From NCBI GenBank assembly GCA_937919625.1, contig CALFRK010000036.1, forward strand, positions 1 to 52,458: DNA of 52,458 nucleotides. The letters run 5' to 3'. The stretch comes from an uncultured Ilumatobacter sp. Its GTDB lineage: Bacteria; Actinomycetota; Acidimicrobiia; Acidimicrobiales; Ilumatobacteraceae. The position numbers and the translations under genes are program-made. Below the pieces are notes generated by a model, which saw nothing but the letters and a program-made list of their open reading frames with translations, was not told the origin of the DNA and did no database searches. This document shows positions 46,076-52,402 of this stretch, piece after piece (the stretch's first letter is position 1; every line of letters begins with the position of its first letter).

Positions 46076-46957
46076 TCAGCCGGCCTCGCGGGTTCGCCAG
46101 GGGAGTTCGTTGAGATACTTCACAGCGGCGGGATGCGGGTCCATGTGACGGATCTCGGTCGGCAACTGCCGGTCGAGTCGCACCTGACATCCGGGGCACC
46201 AGAACAACATCCGCCCCTGGCGCCCAACGGGGCGGGACTCGATCGTTTCAGAACAGCGAATGCATCCCTGACCGGTTCGGCCATAGACGGCCAGCCCACC
46301 CGAAGTATGACTGGTGGTCGCACGGCGAATCCGGCCCTGATTGGTTCGCACCATCTTGGCGGCCGTGTTGACGATCAGCACCGCGTCATGATGAGTCAGA
46401 TCAGCGATGTGTGTCCACGGGCTCAGCTCGGCCGCCCACAACACCTCGCAGCGGTAGACATTGCCGACGCCCTGCATCACATGCTGGTCAACCATCACAT
46501 CGCGCAAGCGCGCTTGGCGATTGGGATACGACAACATGAGGTCGATCGCCTCGACGAGATTGTCGTCATGCCGACACAGGTCGGGCCCGAGCCGACCCAG
46601 CCCAGGGTGACGTTCCCTGTCGTTCTGGCGATAGGTCTCCACGGTCGGAGCACCGAAACACACCGCAACAAAATCGTCGGTCTGGATCGACGCCCGCAGC
46701 GTGTCCCACGACCGTCGCCAAGGCGCACCTTTTCGATAGACGTGCCACTCGCTCTTGTTCTTGAGATGCGAATTGAGCACGAGCCCGTCGTCCCACATCA
46801 CCTCGAGATGCTTGCCCTTGGCCTCGACGACCTCGACCATGCGACCCGCCTGCGGAACAGGCCCAATCAGGCTGGGGGCATCAAAACGCACCATCGGGTG
46901 ACCGACGAGGGCAGTCCGCATTGCGCATGCGGTTCGGGCAATGTCCACCGCTGTCAT
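46076..46957 (-). CDS. Fpg/Nei-like DNA glycosylase lacking the catalytic Pro-Glu
   Basis: 293 residues of the formamidopyrimidine/endonuclease VIII family. Recognised parts: AKGKHLEVMW (Lys49, beta-strand lysine), the H2TH region RDVMVDQHVMQGVGNVYRCE, SPWTHIADL, and a C-terminal zinc finger CIRC with the second pair in FWCPGCQV (GRQGRMLFWCPGCQ keeps the catalytic-loop Arg). The start is MTAVDIARTA, where active members read MPEGDTV or MPEGHTI: the nucleophilic Pro2 and Glu3 are Thr2 and Ala3. The only in-frame codons before the ATG are GCG TAC GCT CAC CGG GCA, preceded by a stop, so no other start restores them. Base excision is therefore unlikely in the usual way; DNA binding may remain. 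Confidence 0.88.
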   Translation of the reverse strand: MTAVDIARTACAMRTALVGHPMVRFDAPSLIGPVPQAGRMVEVVEAKGKHLEVMWDDGLVLNSHLKNKSEWHVYRKGAPWRRSWDTLRASIQTDDFVAVCFGAPTVETYRQNDRERHPGLGRLGPDLCRHDDNLVEAIDLMLSYPNRQARLRDVMVDQHVMQGVGNVYRCEVLWAAELSPWTHIADLTHHDAVLIVNTAAKMVRTNQGRIRRATTSHTSGGLAVYGRTGQGCIRCSETIESRPVGRQGRMLFWCPGCQVRLDRQLPTEIRHMDPHPAAVKYLNELPWRTREAG

Positions 46958-47036: not shown

Positions 47037-47576
47037 TCAGGGCAGCTGGCCGACGTGGGCCAGGGCAACCCGCAGAATGCGGTCTTGGCCGCCGGTCATC
47101 TGCCCGATCACGCTCGGGCTCACCACCTCGGCCGGGGTGTACCACGCCAGATCGAGCGCCTCTTGTGTCGGCTCGCACTCGCCGTCGACCGGCACGATGT
47201 AGATCAGGCTGACGGCGTGCTGGCGCGGGTCATAAAACCCAGTGACTTCATTGTCGGGAAAGTATTCGGCGATCGTGAAGGGCGCTGGATTGACGGGGAT
47301 CCGCGGGAGAGCCAGCGGACCGAGGTCTTTTTCGCAGTGGCGCAGCAATGCGTCGCGGATCCGTTCGCCATGGATCACCCGTCCGCTGACGATCAGACGG
47401 CTGATCGAACCGTCGGCCGCCTGCCGCAGCAACAGCCCGATATTGGTGACATTGCCGAGCGCGTCGACCCGCACCGGAACCGCCTCGACATACACGATCG
47501 GCATCTGGGCGCGAACCTGCTCAAGATTGTCGGAAGACAGCCAGATGCTGTCGGTTGCGGTATCGATTTCGCTCAC
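47037..47576 (-). CDS. DUF4916 (NUDIX-superfamily) protein
   Basis: 179 residues of the DUF4916 family: RAQMPIVYVEAVPVRVDALG (23-42), GLLLRQAADGSISRLIVSGR, RDALLRHCEKDLGPLALPRI and DPRQHAVSLIYIVPV. The family belongs to the NUDIX superfamily but a full GX5EX7REUXEEXGU box is not seen, so hydrolase activity is uncertain. It is common in actinobacteria and its role is not known to me. On the minus strand, 79 bases upstream of the Nei-like gene. Confidence 0.85.
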   Translation of the reverse strand: MSEIDTATDSIWLSSDNLEQVRAQMPIVYVEAVPVRVDALGNVTNIGLLLRQAADGSISRLIVSGRVIHGERIRDALLRHCEKDLGPLALPRIPVNPAPFTIAEYFPDNEVTGFYDPRQHAVSLIYIVPVDGECEPTQEALDLAWYTPAEVVSPSVIGQMTGGQDRILRVALAHVGQLP

Positions 47577-47873
47577 TAGCCGACATCCTAAATGGAGGGC
47601 GGGTGGCGCGACCTGGTTTCGGTGCCCGGTTCACCCGACGTTGTCAAACGCACGCGATGAATGACGGCGCCGAGCAACGTCATATCGGAGGCGAACGCGG
47701 CGACGACGTCACGAATCTGGGCCCGGTCAGCCAGGCGCTCGGGTCGGATCGCTCGCGAATCGCCGACTGGGTCGACCAGCAGGTCAGCCATGCCACATCA
47801 TGGCCGTTGATCATGGCCGTACAACATGGCCGTACATCCCGAGTAGCAGCGCTGTTCGCTAGCGTCGACCCAC
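47577..47873. other. Region before mftE, 297 bases, with ATGGCCGT repeats
   Basis: No mftA-like peptide gene (which should end near IDGxCGVY) and no other gene is seen. ATGGCCGT occurs three times at about 47801, 47814 and 47826 with about 12-base phase, just before the mftE start; it may be a regulator site or chance. The divergent DUF4916 gene starts at 47576. Confidence 0.5.
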
Positions 47874-48539
47874 ATGGGCAGCGCCGCGACCTCACTCGGA
47901 GGCATGACGTGGACCGACCTCGTCAGTCCGATCGTCGTCGTGCCAGTCGGCAGCTGCGAGCAGCACGGACCGCACCTACCGCTCCATACCGACACGCTGA
48001 TCGCCACCGAACTTGCGGGCGACCTGGTCGCCCGTCGCAACGACTGTGTGCTCGCTCCACCGATCACGATCACGGCCAGTGGCGAGCACCAGGGTTTCCC
48101 CGGCACCCTGTCGATCGGCACCGACGTAATGGCGAACGTGATAGTCGAGATCGCCCGATCGGCCGACTGGGCATCGGGCATCGTGTTCGTCAACGGACAC
48201 GGCGGCAATTGCGCGGCGATGGATCGAGCGGCCGATGTGTTCCGGCACGAGTCTCGCGAGGTACTGATCTGGTGGCCCCACCTGCCCGACGGCGATCCAC
48301 ACGCCGGCCACACCGAAACCTCGCTGATGCTGGCGCTGGCGCCCGATCAGGTGCGATTCGATGCCGCCGCCCGTGGGCCGATCCCGTCGATGGCCGATCT
48401 GATGCGCCACGGCGTCCGCGGGCTGAGCGAAAACGGGGTGCTCGGCGACCCGTCGCAGGCCAACGCCGATGATGGGCTCGTGATCTTCCGACGCCTCGCC
48501 GACCATCTCGCCGCCGCCACCAACGAATGGATCGGCTGA
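47874..48539 (+). CDS. mftE: Mycofactocin system creatininase-family peptidase MftE
   Basis: 221 residues. MftE removes the C-terminal dipeptide core (Val-Tyr derived AHDP) from the modified MftA peptide during synthesis of the redox cofactor mycofactocin. The creatininase metal site is complete: PVGSCEQHGPHLPLHTDT (Glu, His, Asp at about 26-41), VFVNGHGGN and GHTETSLML. The mycofactocin-branch hallmarks SGEHQGFPGTLSIGTD and SENGVLGDPSQANADDG are both present, which separates it from creatininase itself. It overlaps mftF by one base. The expected mftA, mftB, mftC and mftD are not upstream. Confidence 0.9.
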   Translation: MGSAATSLGGMTWTDLVSPIVVVPVGSCEQHGPHLPLHTDTLIATELAGDLVARRNDCVLAPPITITASGEHQGFPGTLSIGTDVMANVIVEIARSADWASGIVFVNGHGGNCAAMDRAADVFRHESREVLIWWPHLPDGDPHAGHTETSLMLALAPDQVRFDAAARGPIPSMADLMRHGVRGLSENGVLGDPSQANADDGLVIFRRLADHLAAATNEWIG

Positions 48540-49831
48540 TGCCAAAGCCCCAACACTACGGGCTGGACTCGACGGTCCAGATTTACGGCACCACCGTGAT
48601 CGGTGGCTCACCGTTGAAACTTTTTAGGCTCACCGAGGCGGGCGCCGCCCTTGTCTCCATGATCTCCGCCGGGGACCCGGTCAACGATTCGCCGCTGACG
48701 GCGGCGTTGCTCGACGCCGGAGCGATCCACCCCGTGGGGCGCACACCGCTACACACAGCTGCAGACGTCACCGTCGTAGTACCGACCCTCGGCCCCGCCG
48801 AACGCGCTCCCCGAGACGCGATCATCGTCGACGACGGGTCCCAACCGCCCGTTCCAAACGCGACGCTTCGACTCACAAACAACCAGGGGCCAGGTGCCGC
48901 ACGCAACGCCGGGCTGGCGCTCGTCACGACATCACTGGTCGCTTTCGTCGACAGCGACGTCGAGTTGGCCGATGGCTGGCTCGAGCCCCTACTAGCTCAT
49001 TTCGCCGACGACAGGGTTGCATTGGTCGCGCCTCGGATTCGGACCGACAGCGACGACACCGCACTGGGCAAATACGAACACGAGCACAGCTCGCTAGATC
49101 TTGGTCCCTGGCCGGCACGAGTTCGGGCCGGCACCAGGGTTGGCTATGTCCCGGCCGCAACGATCGTATGCCGCGCCGACGCGGTCAGAGAGATCGGAGG
49201 ATTCGACACCTCGCTTCGATACGGGGAAGACGTCGATCTTGTGTGGCGGCTCGTCCATGCCGGCTGGGTATGCCGCTACGAACCGGCCAGCGAGGTGCGC
49301 CACGCTCGACGACCCGATGCGAGGTCGTGGATCCGTCAGCGAATCGGGTATGGCTCGTCAACAGCGCCGCTGGCAAAGCGGCATCCACGATCGGTGGCCC
49401 CACTTCGGATGAGCGGGTGGAGCATCGCCGCATGGACTCTCGGCGCGGTCGGTCGGCCGGTGGCGGGCGCCCTTGTCGGTGCCGGCTCAGCGATCGCACT
49501 GATCAAAAAGCTGCCAGACATTCCGCCTCGCACAGCACTTCGGATAGCGGGACTCGGCAACCTGCGTGCTGCCGATCAGATCGGCTCCGCCGTGCGGAGG
49601 GCGTGGTGGCCACTGTTGGTCGTTGCAGCCTGCCGTTTTAAGTCGGCTCGCAAGGTGTTGCTGGCCGCTGCGGTAAGCGCCCGCAAGCCGTTGCGGCTCG
49701 TCGATGATCTGGCCTTTTCGGTCGGCGTCTGGAAAGGAATGCTGGCCGAGCGAACGCTCGGCCCACTGGTCCCCGAGATCAGCTCGTGGCCGGGACGCTC
49801 GAAGCCAGTGCCACCCGCAGCCGTTCGCTGA
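48539..49831 (+). CDS. mftF: Mycofactocin system glycosyltransferase MftF
   Basis: 430 residues from ATG 48539 (overlapping the mftE stop as TGATG). A family-2 glycosyltransferase that adds glucose units to premycofactocin. The N-terminal MftF-specific part (VQIYGTTVIGGSPLKLFRL, TEAGAALVSM) precedes the GT-A core: DVTVVVPTL, IIVDDGSQP, NNQGPGAARNAGLALVTT, FVDSDVEL, VAPRIRTDS, SSLDLGPWPARVRAGTRVGY, GEDVDLVWRL and RIGYGSSTAPLAKRH. The DXD-like VDSDV and the EDVDLVW motif are intact. C-terminal helices look membrane-associated. The stop region overlaps the converging DUF4395 gene. Confidence 0.9.
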   Translation: MPKPQHYGLDSTVQIYGTTVIGGSPLKLFRLTEAGAALVSMISAGDPVNDSPLTAALLDAGAIHPVGRTPLHTAADVTVVVPTLGPAERAPRDAIIVDDGSQPPVPNATLRLTNNQGPGAARNAGLALVTTSLVAFVDSDVELADGWLEPLLAHFADDRVALVAPRIRTDSDDTALGKYEHEHSSLDLGPWPARVRAGTRVGYVPAATIVCRADAVREIGGFDTSLRYGEDVDLVWRLVHAGWVCRYEPASEVRHARRPDARSWIRQRIGYGSSTAPLAKRHPRSVAPLRMSGWSIAAWTLGAVGRPVAGALVGAGSAIALIKKLPDIPPRTALRIAGLGNLRAADQIGSAVRRAWWPLLVVAACRFKSARKVLLAAAVSARKPLRLVDDLAFSVGVWKGMLAERTLGPLVPEISSWPGRSKPVPPAAVR

Positions 49832-50279
49832 TGTCGGTGCAGTCCTCGCACTCCCAGATGAAGCGATAGGCGATGCAGCCGAGACACACGGCAAGCACCG
49901 ATTCGAGCGACGCCGCTACCACCAGCAGCCCGATCAGCACATAGCTCAGCCCGGGCGCGCCCACCGCCCAACCGATCGCCGCCAACCCGCTGAAGCCCAG
50001 CCCGATGCCCTGGGCGAATCGTTTTGGCGGCCCCGGCGCGAGCCGGTGCTCGATCTTCAATCTGGGGGTGACAATGCGCGTGGCGAACTGCCCGAGCGGG
50101 CTGAGCGTCGGGCCGGTCAGCACCCTCGCCAGGAAGCCATACACCAGCGGCACCAGCAACCATCCCTCGCGGAACAACACGAAGACAACCACCTGGATGA
50201 CGACGCCAGCAGCGACCACACGCGCCGACGTCTCGTTGACCGGGTCAGGGAACTGGAACAACTTGTCCATGGAATCCAC
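49779..50279 (-). CDS. DUF4395 membrane protein
   Basis: 166 residues with four probable membrane helices. The segments FPDPVNETSARVVAAGVVIQ, GFLARVLTGPTLSPLGQFAT, KRFAQGIGLGFSGLAA, and CLGCIAYRF belong to the DUF4395 family, which often accompanies sulfurtransferases or thioredoxin-like proteins. The CLGC pair could be redox active. The start is GTG 50279 or, with a closer AAGGTGG site, ATG 50270. It converges with mftF and overlaps its last 53 bases. Confidence 0.85.
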   Translation of the reverse strand: MDSMDKLFQFPDPVNETSARVVAAGVVIQVVVFVLFREGWLLVPLVYGFLARVLTGPTLSPLGQFATRIVTPRLKIEHRLAPGPPKRFAQGIGLGFSGLAAIGWAVGAPGLSYVLIGLLVVAASLESVLAVCLGCIAYRFIWECEDCTDISERLRVALASSVPATS

Positions 50280-50405
50280 CTTATCCCGACAAATACGATC
50301 AAACTACTCAGGTATTGACCAGGCCGCTGAGATGGGTCCTGAACCGAGGCCGGGGAGTTGGTGATCCGCCACCGCTCGGCCGATCCGAGCCACTACCGTG
50401 CAAAC

Positions 50406-51323
50406 GTGACCGTCCGGCTGACCGTCAACCGCACCCGTTGGTGGAATCACGTCACATACGTGGCCGACACGGTCAACGAACTGGTGCCGGTGGTGAAAGG
50501 CAACGGTTACGGACTCGGCCGCGAAGGTCTGGCGGTCGCCGCCATGAAGCTCTCCTCGATCATCGCCGTCGGAACCGTGCACGAACTCGGCGGCCTACCC
50601 GACCAGGCGACCCCGGTCGTGCTCACACCTACACTCACCGCACCCGATTCGACCGAGCCGGTGCTGACGGTCGGCAACGAGACGCACATCGCCGCCCTAC
50701 AGGGTTGGGGCGGCCGTGTGATCGTCAAGCTCGCCAGCAGCATGCTCCGCTACGGAGGTGGGATTCAACTCGTCGCCGCCGCTCAACAGGCTGGGCTGCG
50801 CACAGTCGGCGTGTCGATCCACCCTCCGCTCGCCGGCGACGACAGTGCCCATCGCTCCGACATCGTTCGCTACCTCCCAGATATCGATCCCTCGCTCGAC
50901 GTCTGGGTCAGCCATCTCGCCCCCACCACTTATGAGACCCTGCCGACCAGCCATCGATACAAGCTGAGGCTCGGCACCTACCTCTGGCACGGTGATCGCG
51001 AGGCACTCAAGCTCGAAGCCGACGTGCTCGACACACGCCCAATCGCCGCAGGTGATCGCGCCGGATACCGGCTGACCGAGGTTTCCGGTGACGGAACGCT
51101 CGTCATGGTCGGGGCCGGCACAGCCAACGGGATCACACCGAACGCCAACGGGCGCAGTCCGTTCCACTTCGACCGCCACCGGCTCGACCTGCTCGAGCCC
51201 TCTCACATGCACACCTCGATGGTGTTCGTACCCGCCGGTGACCCGTGCCCAATCACCGGCGGCTGGGTCGATCTGCAACGCCCGCTCACAATGACCAACG
51301 CCGACCAGTTGCGTTGGACCTGA
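50406..51323 (+). CDS. Alanine-racemase-like PLP protein without catalytic Tyr265
   Basis: 305 residues from GTG 50406; GTG 50361 is an alternative with a close GGGGAG. The fold-type III barrel has the PLP Lys31 in LVPVVKGNGYGLG and the Alr C-terminal linker RLGTYLWHGDREAL with VLDTRPIAAGDRAGYR. At the place of the Alr catalytic-Tyr segment (GYxDGY) it has GAGTANGITPN, and the MCMDQxMVD-type segment near the C-terminus is HTSMVFVP. So the second acid/base Tyr is missing and the protein is about 50 residues short. Racemase activity is doubtful; PLP binding or another amino-acid reaction is possible. The next gene overlaps it. Confidence 0.8.
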   Translation: MTVRLTVNRTRWWNHVTYVADTVNELVPVVKGNGYGLGREGLAVAAMKLSSIIAVGTVHELGGLPDQATPVVLTPTLTAPDSTEPVLTVGNETHIAALQGWGGRVIVKLASSMLRYGGGIQLVAAAQQAGLRTVGVSIHPPLAGDDSAHRSDIVRYLPDIDPSLDVWVSHLAPTTYETLPTSHRYKLRLGTYLWHGDREALKLEADVLDTRPIAAGDRAGYRLTEVSGDGTLVMVGAGTANGITPNANGRSPFHFDRHRLDLLEPSHMHTSMVFVPAGDPCPITGGWVDLQRPLTMTNADQLRWT

Positions 51324-52402
51324 TCGGGCGCCGCTTGGATATTTCGTCACGCAAGCCGGGTCCAGACGTCGTTCGGGCGCTGGCCATGGCCGGCGTTTTG
51401 ATGATGAACTATCACGGCTACCTCATCATCCGGGGTGCTCAGAGCGATGGCGGAGCCCTCTACGACCTCTTCGATCCTTGGACGGGTCCGCTCTCGACCC
51501 GATTCGCAGCCACCTTCGTGTTGACCGCCGGCGTCGGCGTCACATTGATGACCAACAGCTCCGTCGGCGACGCTGACCGCATCGCTGAGATGCGGTGGCG
51601 ACTAGTTCGTCGTGGTCTCTTGCTGTACGCGGGCGGCCTGCTGTTCGACTTCGTATGGGCCGGCACGATCCTGCCGTACTACGGGGCGATGTTCGTGTTG
51701 GCGGCTGCGCTATTCACGCTGCGAGCTAGATGGATCATGCTGGTCGGCGTGACGGCAGCGCTCGCCGGATGGTCGATTCGTTGGTGGCGCTTCGAACGGT
51801 CACTCGACGACCACTCAACAAGTTGGCTGACCAACCCTGGCGCTCGCTCACCTCGCGGACTGTTATTCGATCTGTTCGTCAACGGCACCCACCCGTTGCT
51901 GCCATGGCTGGCCCTGTTGTGCGCAGGAATGCTGCTGGGCCGAATACTTGAAACGAGTTGGTGGCGCCCCGCCGCAGCAAGCGCCGGGTTCACGTTGTAC
52001 GCAGGAGCGCTGCTCGCCAACTCGGCCGCCGAAAGTGAACGGACACTGATCGTGTTGAGCGACGATCCATTCGAACGCGGCCTCGCCTACACGGCCAGCG
52101 CACTCGGCACGGCCCTGATTGCGTTCGTCGTGATCTCGTGGATCGCCGACCGGTTCAGCAGCACCCCGGCAGTCAACGCTCTCCAGCACGCCGGGCAGAT
52201 GTCATTGACGATCTATCTCGCCCACGCGCTGGCGTTCAATCTGTCGGTCGACTGGCTCGATATCGTCGAACCGGGCGGGATCGGCACGGCTCTGGCGTGC
52301 ACCCTCGTGTTTTGGCTGGCAGCCACATCGGCCGCCGTGTGGTACCAACGCCGCTACGGACGCGGCCCAGCCGAGCAGCTGTACCGGCGCCTCACAGCCT
52401 GA
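51314..52402 (+). CDS. YeiB/DUF418-like integral membrane protein
   Basis: About 360 residues with about ten membrane helices. The start PGPDVVRALAMAGVLMMNYHGYL is the opening of the DUF418/DUF1624-type acyltransferase-like group (heparan-acetyltransferase fold). Further segments are VLTAGVGVTLMT, RRGLLLYAGGLLFDFVWAG, ILPYYGAMFVLAAALF, GTHPLLPWLALLCAGMLLGR and LTIYLAHALAF. The start is unclear: TTG 51314 gives a ten-base overlap with the racemase-like gene; GTG 51245 would overlap it by 79. Possibly modifies an envelope amino-acid or sugar substrate together with the upstream protein (inference). Confidence 0.8.
   Translation: MDLIGRRLDISSRKPGPDVVRALAMAGVLMMNYHGYLIIRGAQSDGGALYDLFDPWTGPLSTRFAATFVLTAGVGVTLMTNSSVGDADRIAEMRWRLVRRGLLLYAGGLLFDFVWAGTILPYYGAMFVLAAALFTLRARWIMLVGVTAALAGWSIRWWRFERSLDDHSTSWLTNPGARSPRGLLFDLFVNGTHPLLPWLALLCAGMLLGRILETSWWRPAAASAGFTLYAGALLANSAAESERTLIVLSDDPFERGLAYTASALGTALIAFVVISWIADRFSSTPAVNALQHAGQMSLTIYLAHALAFNLSVDWLDIVEPGGIGTALACTLVFWLAATSAAVWYQRRYGRGPAEQLYRRLTA

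Follow-up and report, generated by a model that had tools for sequence, protein, structure and literature searches.

What do mftE and mftF serve in a stretch of DNA that holds none of mftA, mftB, mftC and mftD? The window (the whole stretch analysed, 52,458 bp, which is the entire contig C36) carries these two genes as a pair, with 47.9 kb of non-mft sequence on the upstream side of mftE. Our analysis indicates with high confidence that the pair belongs to an ordinary mycofactocin pathway that is complete but located at three unlinked sites of the genome, and that mftABC and mftEF come from one ancestral locus.

Mycofactocin genes of the window and of its genome

The mftE gene (47874..48539, plus strand) encodes a mycofactocin peptidyl-dipeptidase of the creatininase family with 221 aa (TIGR03964, 255.2 bits vs a cut-off of 172; PF02633, 192.8 bits). 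The mftF gene (48539..49831, plus strand) encodes a mycofactocin glycosyltransferase (GT2) with 430 aa from the ATG at 48539 (TIGR03965, 332 bits vs a cut-off of 280, scored on the frame from the ATG at 48527, 434 aa). Identity was judged by a score above the NCBI curated cut-off. Both proteins pass, which bears out their assignment to the mycofactocin branch in the preliminary description and argues against their being ordinary homologs. The one-base overlap it reported is present if MftF begins at ATG 48539, where the two genes share the sequence TGATG (48537-48541); with the alternative start at ATG 48527 the overlap would be 13 bases. The EQH...D and NGH motifs of MftE align with those of the structure-known creatininases 3no4 and 3a6j, and we take these residues to be metal ligands.

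The left neighbour of mftE, at the new junction, is a divergent gene for a DUF4916/NUDIX protein (47037..47576, minus strand; PF16262, 253 bits), and the second is a Nei2/Fpg-like DNA glycosylase gene (46076..46957, minus strand; NF040775, 116 bits, below the cut-off of 400). The promoter of mftEF is presumed to lie in the 297 bp gap between the DUF4916 gene and mftE (47577..47873, plus strand). To the right of mftF are genes for a DUF4395 protein (49779..50279, minus strand; PF14340, 120 bits), an alanine-racemase-like (alr) protein (50358..51323, plus strand; PF01168, 29 bits, cut-off 24.1) and a DUF418/HGSNAT-like membrane protein (51245..52402, plus strand; PF04235, 48 bits; PF07786, 38 bits), the last of which, counted from its first GTG, overlaps the alr-like gene. 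The same three genes (49779-52402 in the window) trail mftEF in joined and in several split genomes.

The window genome has a size of 4.10 Mb in 185 contigs and is 98.7% complete, with an estimated contamination of 3.05%. The preliminary description had found mftABCD missing upstream of the pair and proposed a search of the rest of the genome. Our search located mftA, mftB and mftC on contig C55 and mftD on contig C46, so that the usual, non-obligatory co-clustering of mft genes does not hold here and the genes are spread over three contigs. The gene order on C55 is mftA, mftB, mftC and then plsY. The mftA gene (C55:11321-11434) encodes 38 aa with the canonical end IDGMCGVY, which holds the Val-Tyr core (51.2 bits vs a cut-off of 25), and nothing else in the genome matches the precursor model. 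Next to it lies mftB (101.6 bits vs 33, with the model applied around mftA on C55). The mftC gene (610.6 bits vs 265) and mftD (C46:12511-13662; 660 bits vs 471) also score over their cut-offs, and the window holds no match over the cut-off for mftA, mftC or mftD. All six mft genes are open frames above curated cut-offs. C55 further carries an NDMA-dependent alcohol dehydrogenase (NDMA-ADH), of a mycofactocin client class (TIGR03989, 521 bits vs 440), while no mycofactocin-type SDR (TIGR03971) was found in the genome at E ≤ 1e-60, with 46 of 51 candidates scored.

Other candidates were rejected. A second radical-SAM match on C177 is a MoaA with an adjacent MoeA-like gene, and thus not a second maturase of the MftC family. 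A second creatininase on C58 scores 122 bits, below the mftE cut-off, and the single MftA match argues against a second peptide substrate. As a side observation, a 1024-aa M16-type peptidase (C55, L003:4174-7248, minus strand; 51 bits with the PqqF model, below the cut-off) sits 4 kb upstream of mftA on C55, and a relative of it lies near mftABC in genome G134.

Split and joined loci among relatives

Two genomes of the window's family, G289 and G405, carry on one contig an LCP gene, NDMA-ADH (minus strand), mftA-B-C, plsY, DedA, mftE-F, DUF4395 (minus strand), the alr-like gene and DUF418. Since the first part is like C55 and the second like the window, the two pieces are arms of one locus. 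In the window's family, mftA, mftB and mftC are together in 11 of 11 genomes and mftE and mftF are adjacent in 10 of 11. Among genomes with both genes at the thresholds used, mftC and mftE lie within 20 kb of each other in 19/21 genomes of other orders of the phylum, in 29/43 from the window's order but another family and in 3/11 of its own family. The same-order genomes G424, G429 and G434 of the phylum sample are counted in none of the three groups, and of two mftE matches with 169.2 bits, just below the cut-off, that of G228 entered the phylum group, whereas that of G074 did not enter the order group. Genes on different contigs may partly reflect assembly gaps, outside the family as well as in it. 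The eight split genomes of the family comprise two single-contig cases (G006, and G134, where 163 kb separate mftC from mftE) and six with the genes on different contigs.

The prevalence of the joined arrangement outside the family favours it as the older state, and we infer a change from joined to split. Resolution in the MftE and MftF trees is poor, too poor to date the split, so this direction rests mainly on the flanking genes and on the layouts of other genomes. The ancestral locus would have been mftABC-plsY-DedA-mftEF-DUF4395-alr-DUF418, and it would have broken between plsY and mftE. A first MftC tree did not resolve the family; in a larger one, with 51 genomes, the 11 family sequences form a clade (99/96).

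The DUF4916 and Nei2/Fpg-like genes found before mftE in the window are also upstream of it in G006, MO_167.B34, G064 and G270, the distance from DUF4916 to mftE ranging from 0.07-0.08 kb (G064 and G270) through 1.7 kb (G006) to 4.8 kb (MO_167.B34). Elsewhere mftE is preceded by an ETF block (G327, and 1.9 kb off in G102), by DedA (G299) or by a divergent mftD (G134). This variety of left neighbours in split genomes suggests more than one break of the locus in the family.

Some observations on single genomes may be added. G134 has two unlinked mftF-like genes (L119 and L120; 243 and 237 bits, below the cut-off of 280), neither of them beside mftE. One in-frame TGA occurs in several of the mftE matches, for example G102:C16:17211-17888, perhaps because the match extends beyond the stop of the gene into the next one. 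In the order sample, G031, G049, G142 and G154 have mftC over the cut-off and mftE unmatched at E ≤ 0.001, and another peptidase may serve these genomes.

In mycobacteria, according to PMC7491314 and PMC11778925, MftA is bound by MftB and its Val-Tyr core is cyclised by MftC; MftE frees AHDP, MftD deaminates it and MftF attaches glucose units. If the proteins of the window genome have the activities of the families after which they are named, MftA from C55 would be cyclised by MftB and MftC, likewise from C55, the AHDP core would be released by MftE of the window locus and deaminated by MftD from C46, and MftF of the window locus would attach sugars, all steps occurring in trans.

The genes might instead be remnants of a disused pathway, with mftE and mftF being lost. 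The cluster is broken, and among 58 mftC-bearing genomes of the order mftE is missing over the cut-off in 10, and 23 gave no mftD match at E ≤ 1e-130 (G131, one of these, has an mftD cut by the contig end). However, the six open frames with scores above curated cut-offs, the alignment of the MftE motifs with creatininases and the occurrence of the three-site layout in another species of the genus make decay very improbable.

To an artefact of assembly or binning, in which C36, C55 and C46 would be true neighbours or come from different organisms, we give slightly less credence again, although the genome is a draft with many contigs and some contamination. The upstream flank of mftE is long, and on the 23.7-kb C55 the contig start is 11.7 kb away from mftC. 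Composition is alike in C36, C55 and the C46 stretch that was fetched (GC 0.638-0.644, tetranucleotide r 0.987-0.990 among themselves), a check that DNA of a closely related organism in the bin would pass too, since the same-family genomes G006 and G134 are nearly as similar (r 0.959-0.972). In G006, a genome of the same genus with a single contig of 4,775,416 bp, the three sites are at 1.07 Mb (mftC), 3.94 Mb (mftEF) and 4.65 Mb (mftD). Its mftABC piece has SDR, ABC transporter and plsY flanks in common with the window genome, and its mftEF piece has Nei2 and DUF4916 before mftE and alr and DUF418 after mftF; no common flank was seen for mftD. Proteins of the window genome are 85% (MftC), 77% (MftD), 67% (MftE) and 60% (MftF) identical to their G006 orthologues. 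The closest named record, the MAG Ilumatobacter sp. MO_167.B34, has the same neighbours and an MftE that is 73% identical. The window's family is probably that of Ilumatobacter. The recurrence of the three sites in G006 makes misassembly unlikely and leaves no assembly gap to explain the split. That mftABCD lies just beyond a misassembly, a possibility that the preliminary description had raised, is not borne out, and its suggestion of a locus split in this lineage is supported.

Its other suggestion, that MftE and MftF act on another peptide (or, equally, on a small molecule), is the least credible of all: mftEF is physically unlinked from mftABC in the window genome, which thereby lacks the adjacency that is the classical sign of serving MftA, but the precursor model matches one canonical MftA only, genome-wide, mftC is present in 48 of the 49 order-sample genomes with mftE over the cut-off (the exception being 74% complete), and in G289 and G405 mftEF lies within the mftABC locus.

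Loci without mftD

Several mycofactocin loci of relatives lack mftD, and close to their mft genes are those for two flavoenzymes of the FadH/OYE type (OYE1 and OYE2), for an electron-transfer flavoprotein (ETF) and for FixC and FixX. In G373, of the same family as the window (L113:6450-19500), the order is mftA-B-C, OYE1, plsY, OYE2, DedA, etfA, fixC, fixX, etfB and mftE-F. Between plsY and OYE2, the opposite strand shows a weak SDR-like match (27%). The scores are 712 for OYE1 (cut-off 628), 950 for OYE2 (793), 343 for mft_etfA (240) and 208 for mft_etfB (200). No mftD was found at E ≤ 1e-60 in G373, G102 or G327. Further mftD-less loci with such genes are those of G102 (L121/L122) and G327 (L123/L124), L141-L160 and those of Streptomyces (L181-L183). 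The locus of G289 and G405 is like that of G373 minus the ETF block and both OYE genes; plsY and DedA are retained, and mftD is on another contig. On the Streptomyces plasmids NZ_CP108009, NZ_CP107797 and NZ_CP102515 we found mftA-B-C, two large flavoenzymes, ETF, a FAD enzyme, a 4Fe-4S protein, ETF and mftF-mftE, with no mftD in the locus in all three records examined of four found. Both flavoenzymes are named mycofactocin FadH/OYE in two records, and only the second in the third.

Near mft genes, etfA and etfB were found together in 0/29 mftD-bearing and 14/23 mftD-less genomes (Fisher p 4.6e-7, with relatedness ignored and G131 still grouped as mftD-less). After G131 was regrouped as mftD-bearing, for the mftD piece at its contig end, OYE matches above 150 bits were present in 1/30 mftD-bearing and 17/22 mftD-less genomes. 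Over all searches combined, at least one of the six OYE/ETF/Fix genes scored above 60 bits in 20 of 22 mftD-less genomes, among them G117 with a single 70-bit etfB match from a relaxed search that covered the mftD-less genomes alone; in G063 and G077, both mftD-less, the OYE/ETF set was not found either in the neighbourhoods examined. G042, which has mftD, contains a distant OYE relative with 469 bits, below the TIGR03997 cut-off of 793. These counts refer to DNA near mft genes, mostly ≤20 kb, down to short contigs of 3.3 kb (G047) and 4.2 kb (G072), and in split-locus genomes they often cover one part of the locus. The queries were taken from G327 alone for ETF and from a single Streptomyces plasmid for OYE. 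Two of the 23 mftD-less genomes of the order sample (G143 and G031) and 11 of the 35 mftD-bearing ones are outside the counts; the phylum sample contributed the mftD-less G327 and G373 and the mftD-bearing G289, G405, G270, G299 and G194.

The window genome belongs to the kind with mftD, and none of OYE1, OYE2, mft_etfA, FixC, FixX and mft_etfB was found in the region searched, which comprised the window, C55 and the C46 stretch. The MftA end IDGMCGVY occurs in both kinds, in 13 of 15 mftD-less and 22 of 24 mftD-bearing loci, and the pattern was unmatched in the other four.

OYE2 has its best matches in the ene-reductase NCR and dienoyl-CoA reductase and shows kinship also with histamine dehydrogenase (E 5.8e-59) and with trimethylamine dehydrogenase (3.3e-51); OYE1 has the same relatives with weaker matches. 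Trimethylamine dehydrogenase hands electrons to ETF. From this kinship and this electron route we propose that the OYE, ETF and FixCX proteins may oxidise AHDP in place of MftD, feeding quinones. We also propose that an unlinked mftD accompanied the decay of the cluster in the window's family. As a tentative scheme, offered as a possibility rather than an expectation, there would be two interchangeable kinds of locus, one with MftD, an FMN enzyme, the other with amine-dehydrogenase-like OYE1 and OYE2 that would use an ETF and FixCX of their own to send electrons from AHDP to the quinone pool. The window's family would have gained an unlinked mftD repeatedly and then lost the OYE/ETF genes from between mftC and mftE, after which the shortened cluster would have fallen apart and left the lone mftEF. 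A competing explanation is that the OYE/ETF block re-oxidises mycofactocin, like MftG in mycobacteria, or that the OYEs are plain ene-reductases acting on client substrates.

On the 51-genome MftC tree the mftD label changes 14 times, with at least 8 changes forced by well-supported branches, so the alternation of mftD and OYE is not one inherited event. Shuffled labels gave a mean of 15.5 changes, and 125 of 500 shuffles were as low as 14, which indicates that the presence of mftD hardly tracks descent. In the MftD tree the window's family stands in three separate places (L132, L116, L131, L137-L140 and L118), and the family label changes 5 times, 3 of them forced. Repeated gain of an unlinked mftD may have occurred in the family, and it would explain both this scatter and the position of mftD apart from mftABC, seen in 8/8 mftD-bearing family genomes with both placed. 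Three changes are possibly one gain and two losses, so separate gains are one reading of the tree, and losses or old duplicates could explain it as well.

Relation to known systems

The gene families involved, and the fact that they belong with mycofactocin, have been described before (NCBIfam names; PMC3023750). The portion of the open-licence literature that we covered contained no report of a lineage split or of an exchange of mftD, and a mention elsewhere in it is possible. The split is a caution for genome mining, as a complete cofactor pathway can look fragmentary to cluster-based tools. Section 9 of PMC3023750 states that mftD and mftE occur in most, not all, mycofactocin species. The near-exclusive alternation of MftD and OYE/ETF near mft genes, if it is a true replacement, would explain why mftD is not universal, and it would offer a candidate MftD-independent route from AHDP to the redox-active cofactor.

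The mftD-less clusters with FadH/OYE and mft-ETF genes (TIGR03996, TIGR03997, NF038209 and TIGR04503), which occur in the window's family in G373, G102 and G327, have mftA, mftB, mftC, mftE and mftF in common with the window genome. They are without mftD, whereas the window genome has mftD and no OYE/ETF in the fetched mft stretches. A compact arrangement is found in G194, from another family of the phylum, where mftA-B-C-D-E-F lie within 5.1 kb and are followed by a 481-aa frame, a putative MftG, to which none of the other neighbourhoods searched gave a match at E ≤ 1e-15. With the mycobacterial mftABCDEF cluster, as described in PMC3023750 and PMC7491314, the window genome has in common the six gene families, the precursor core and the order of mftE then mftF. 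It differs in having these genes at three unlinked sites and in the neighbours plsY, DUF4395, alr and DUF418, and the split is thus a layout variant of a known system.
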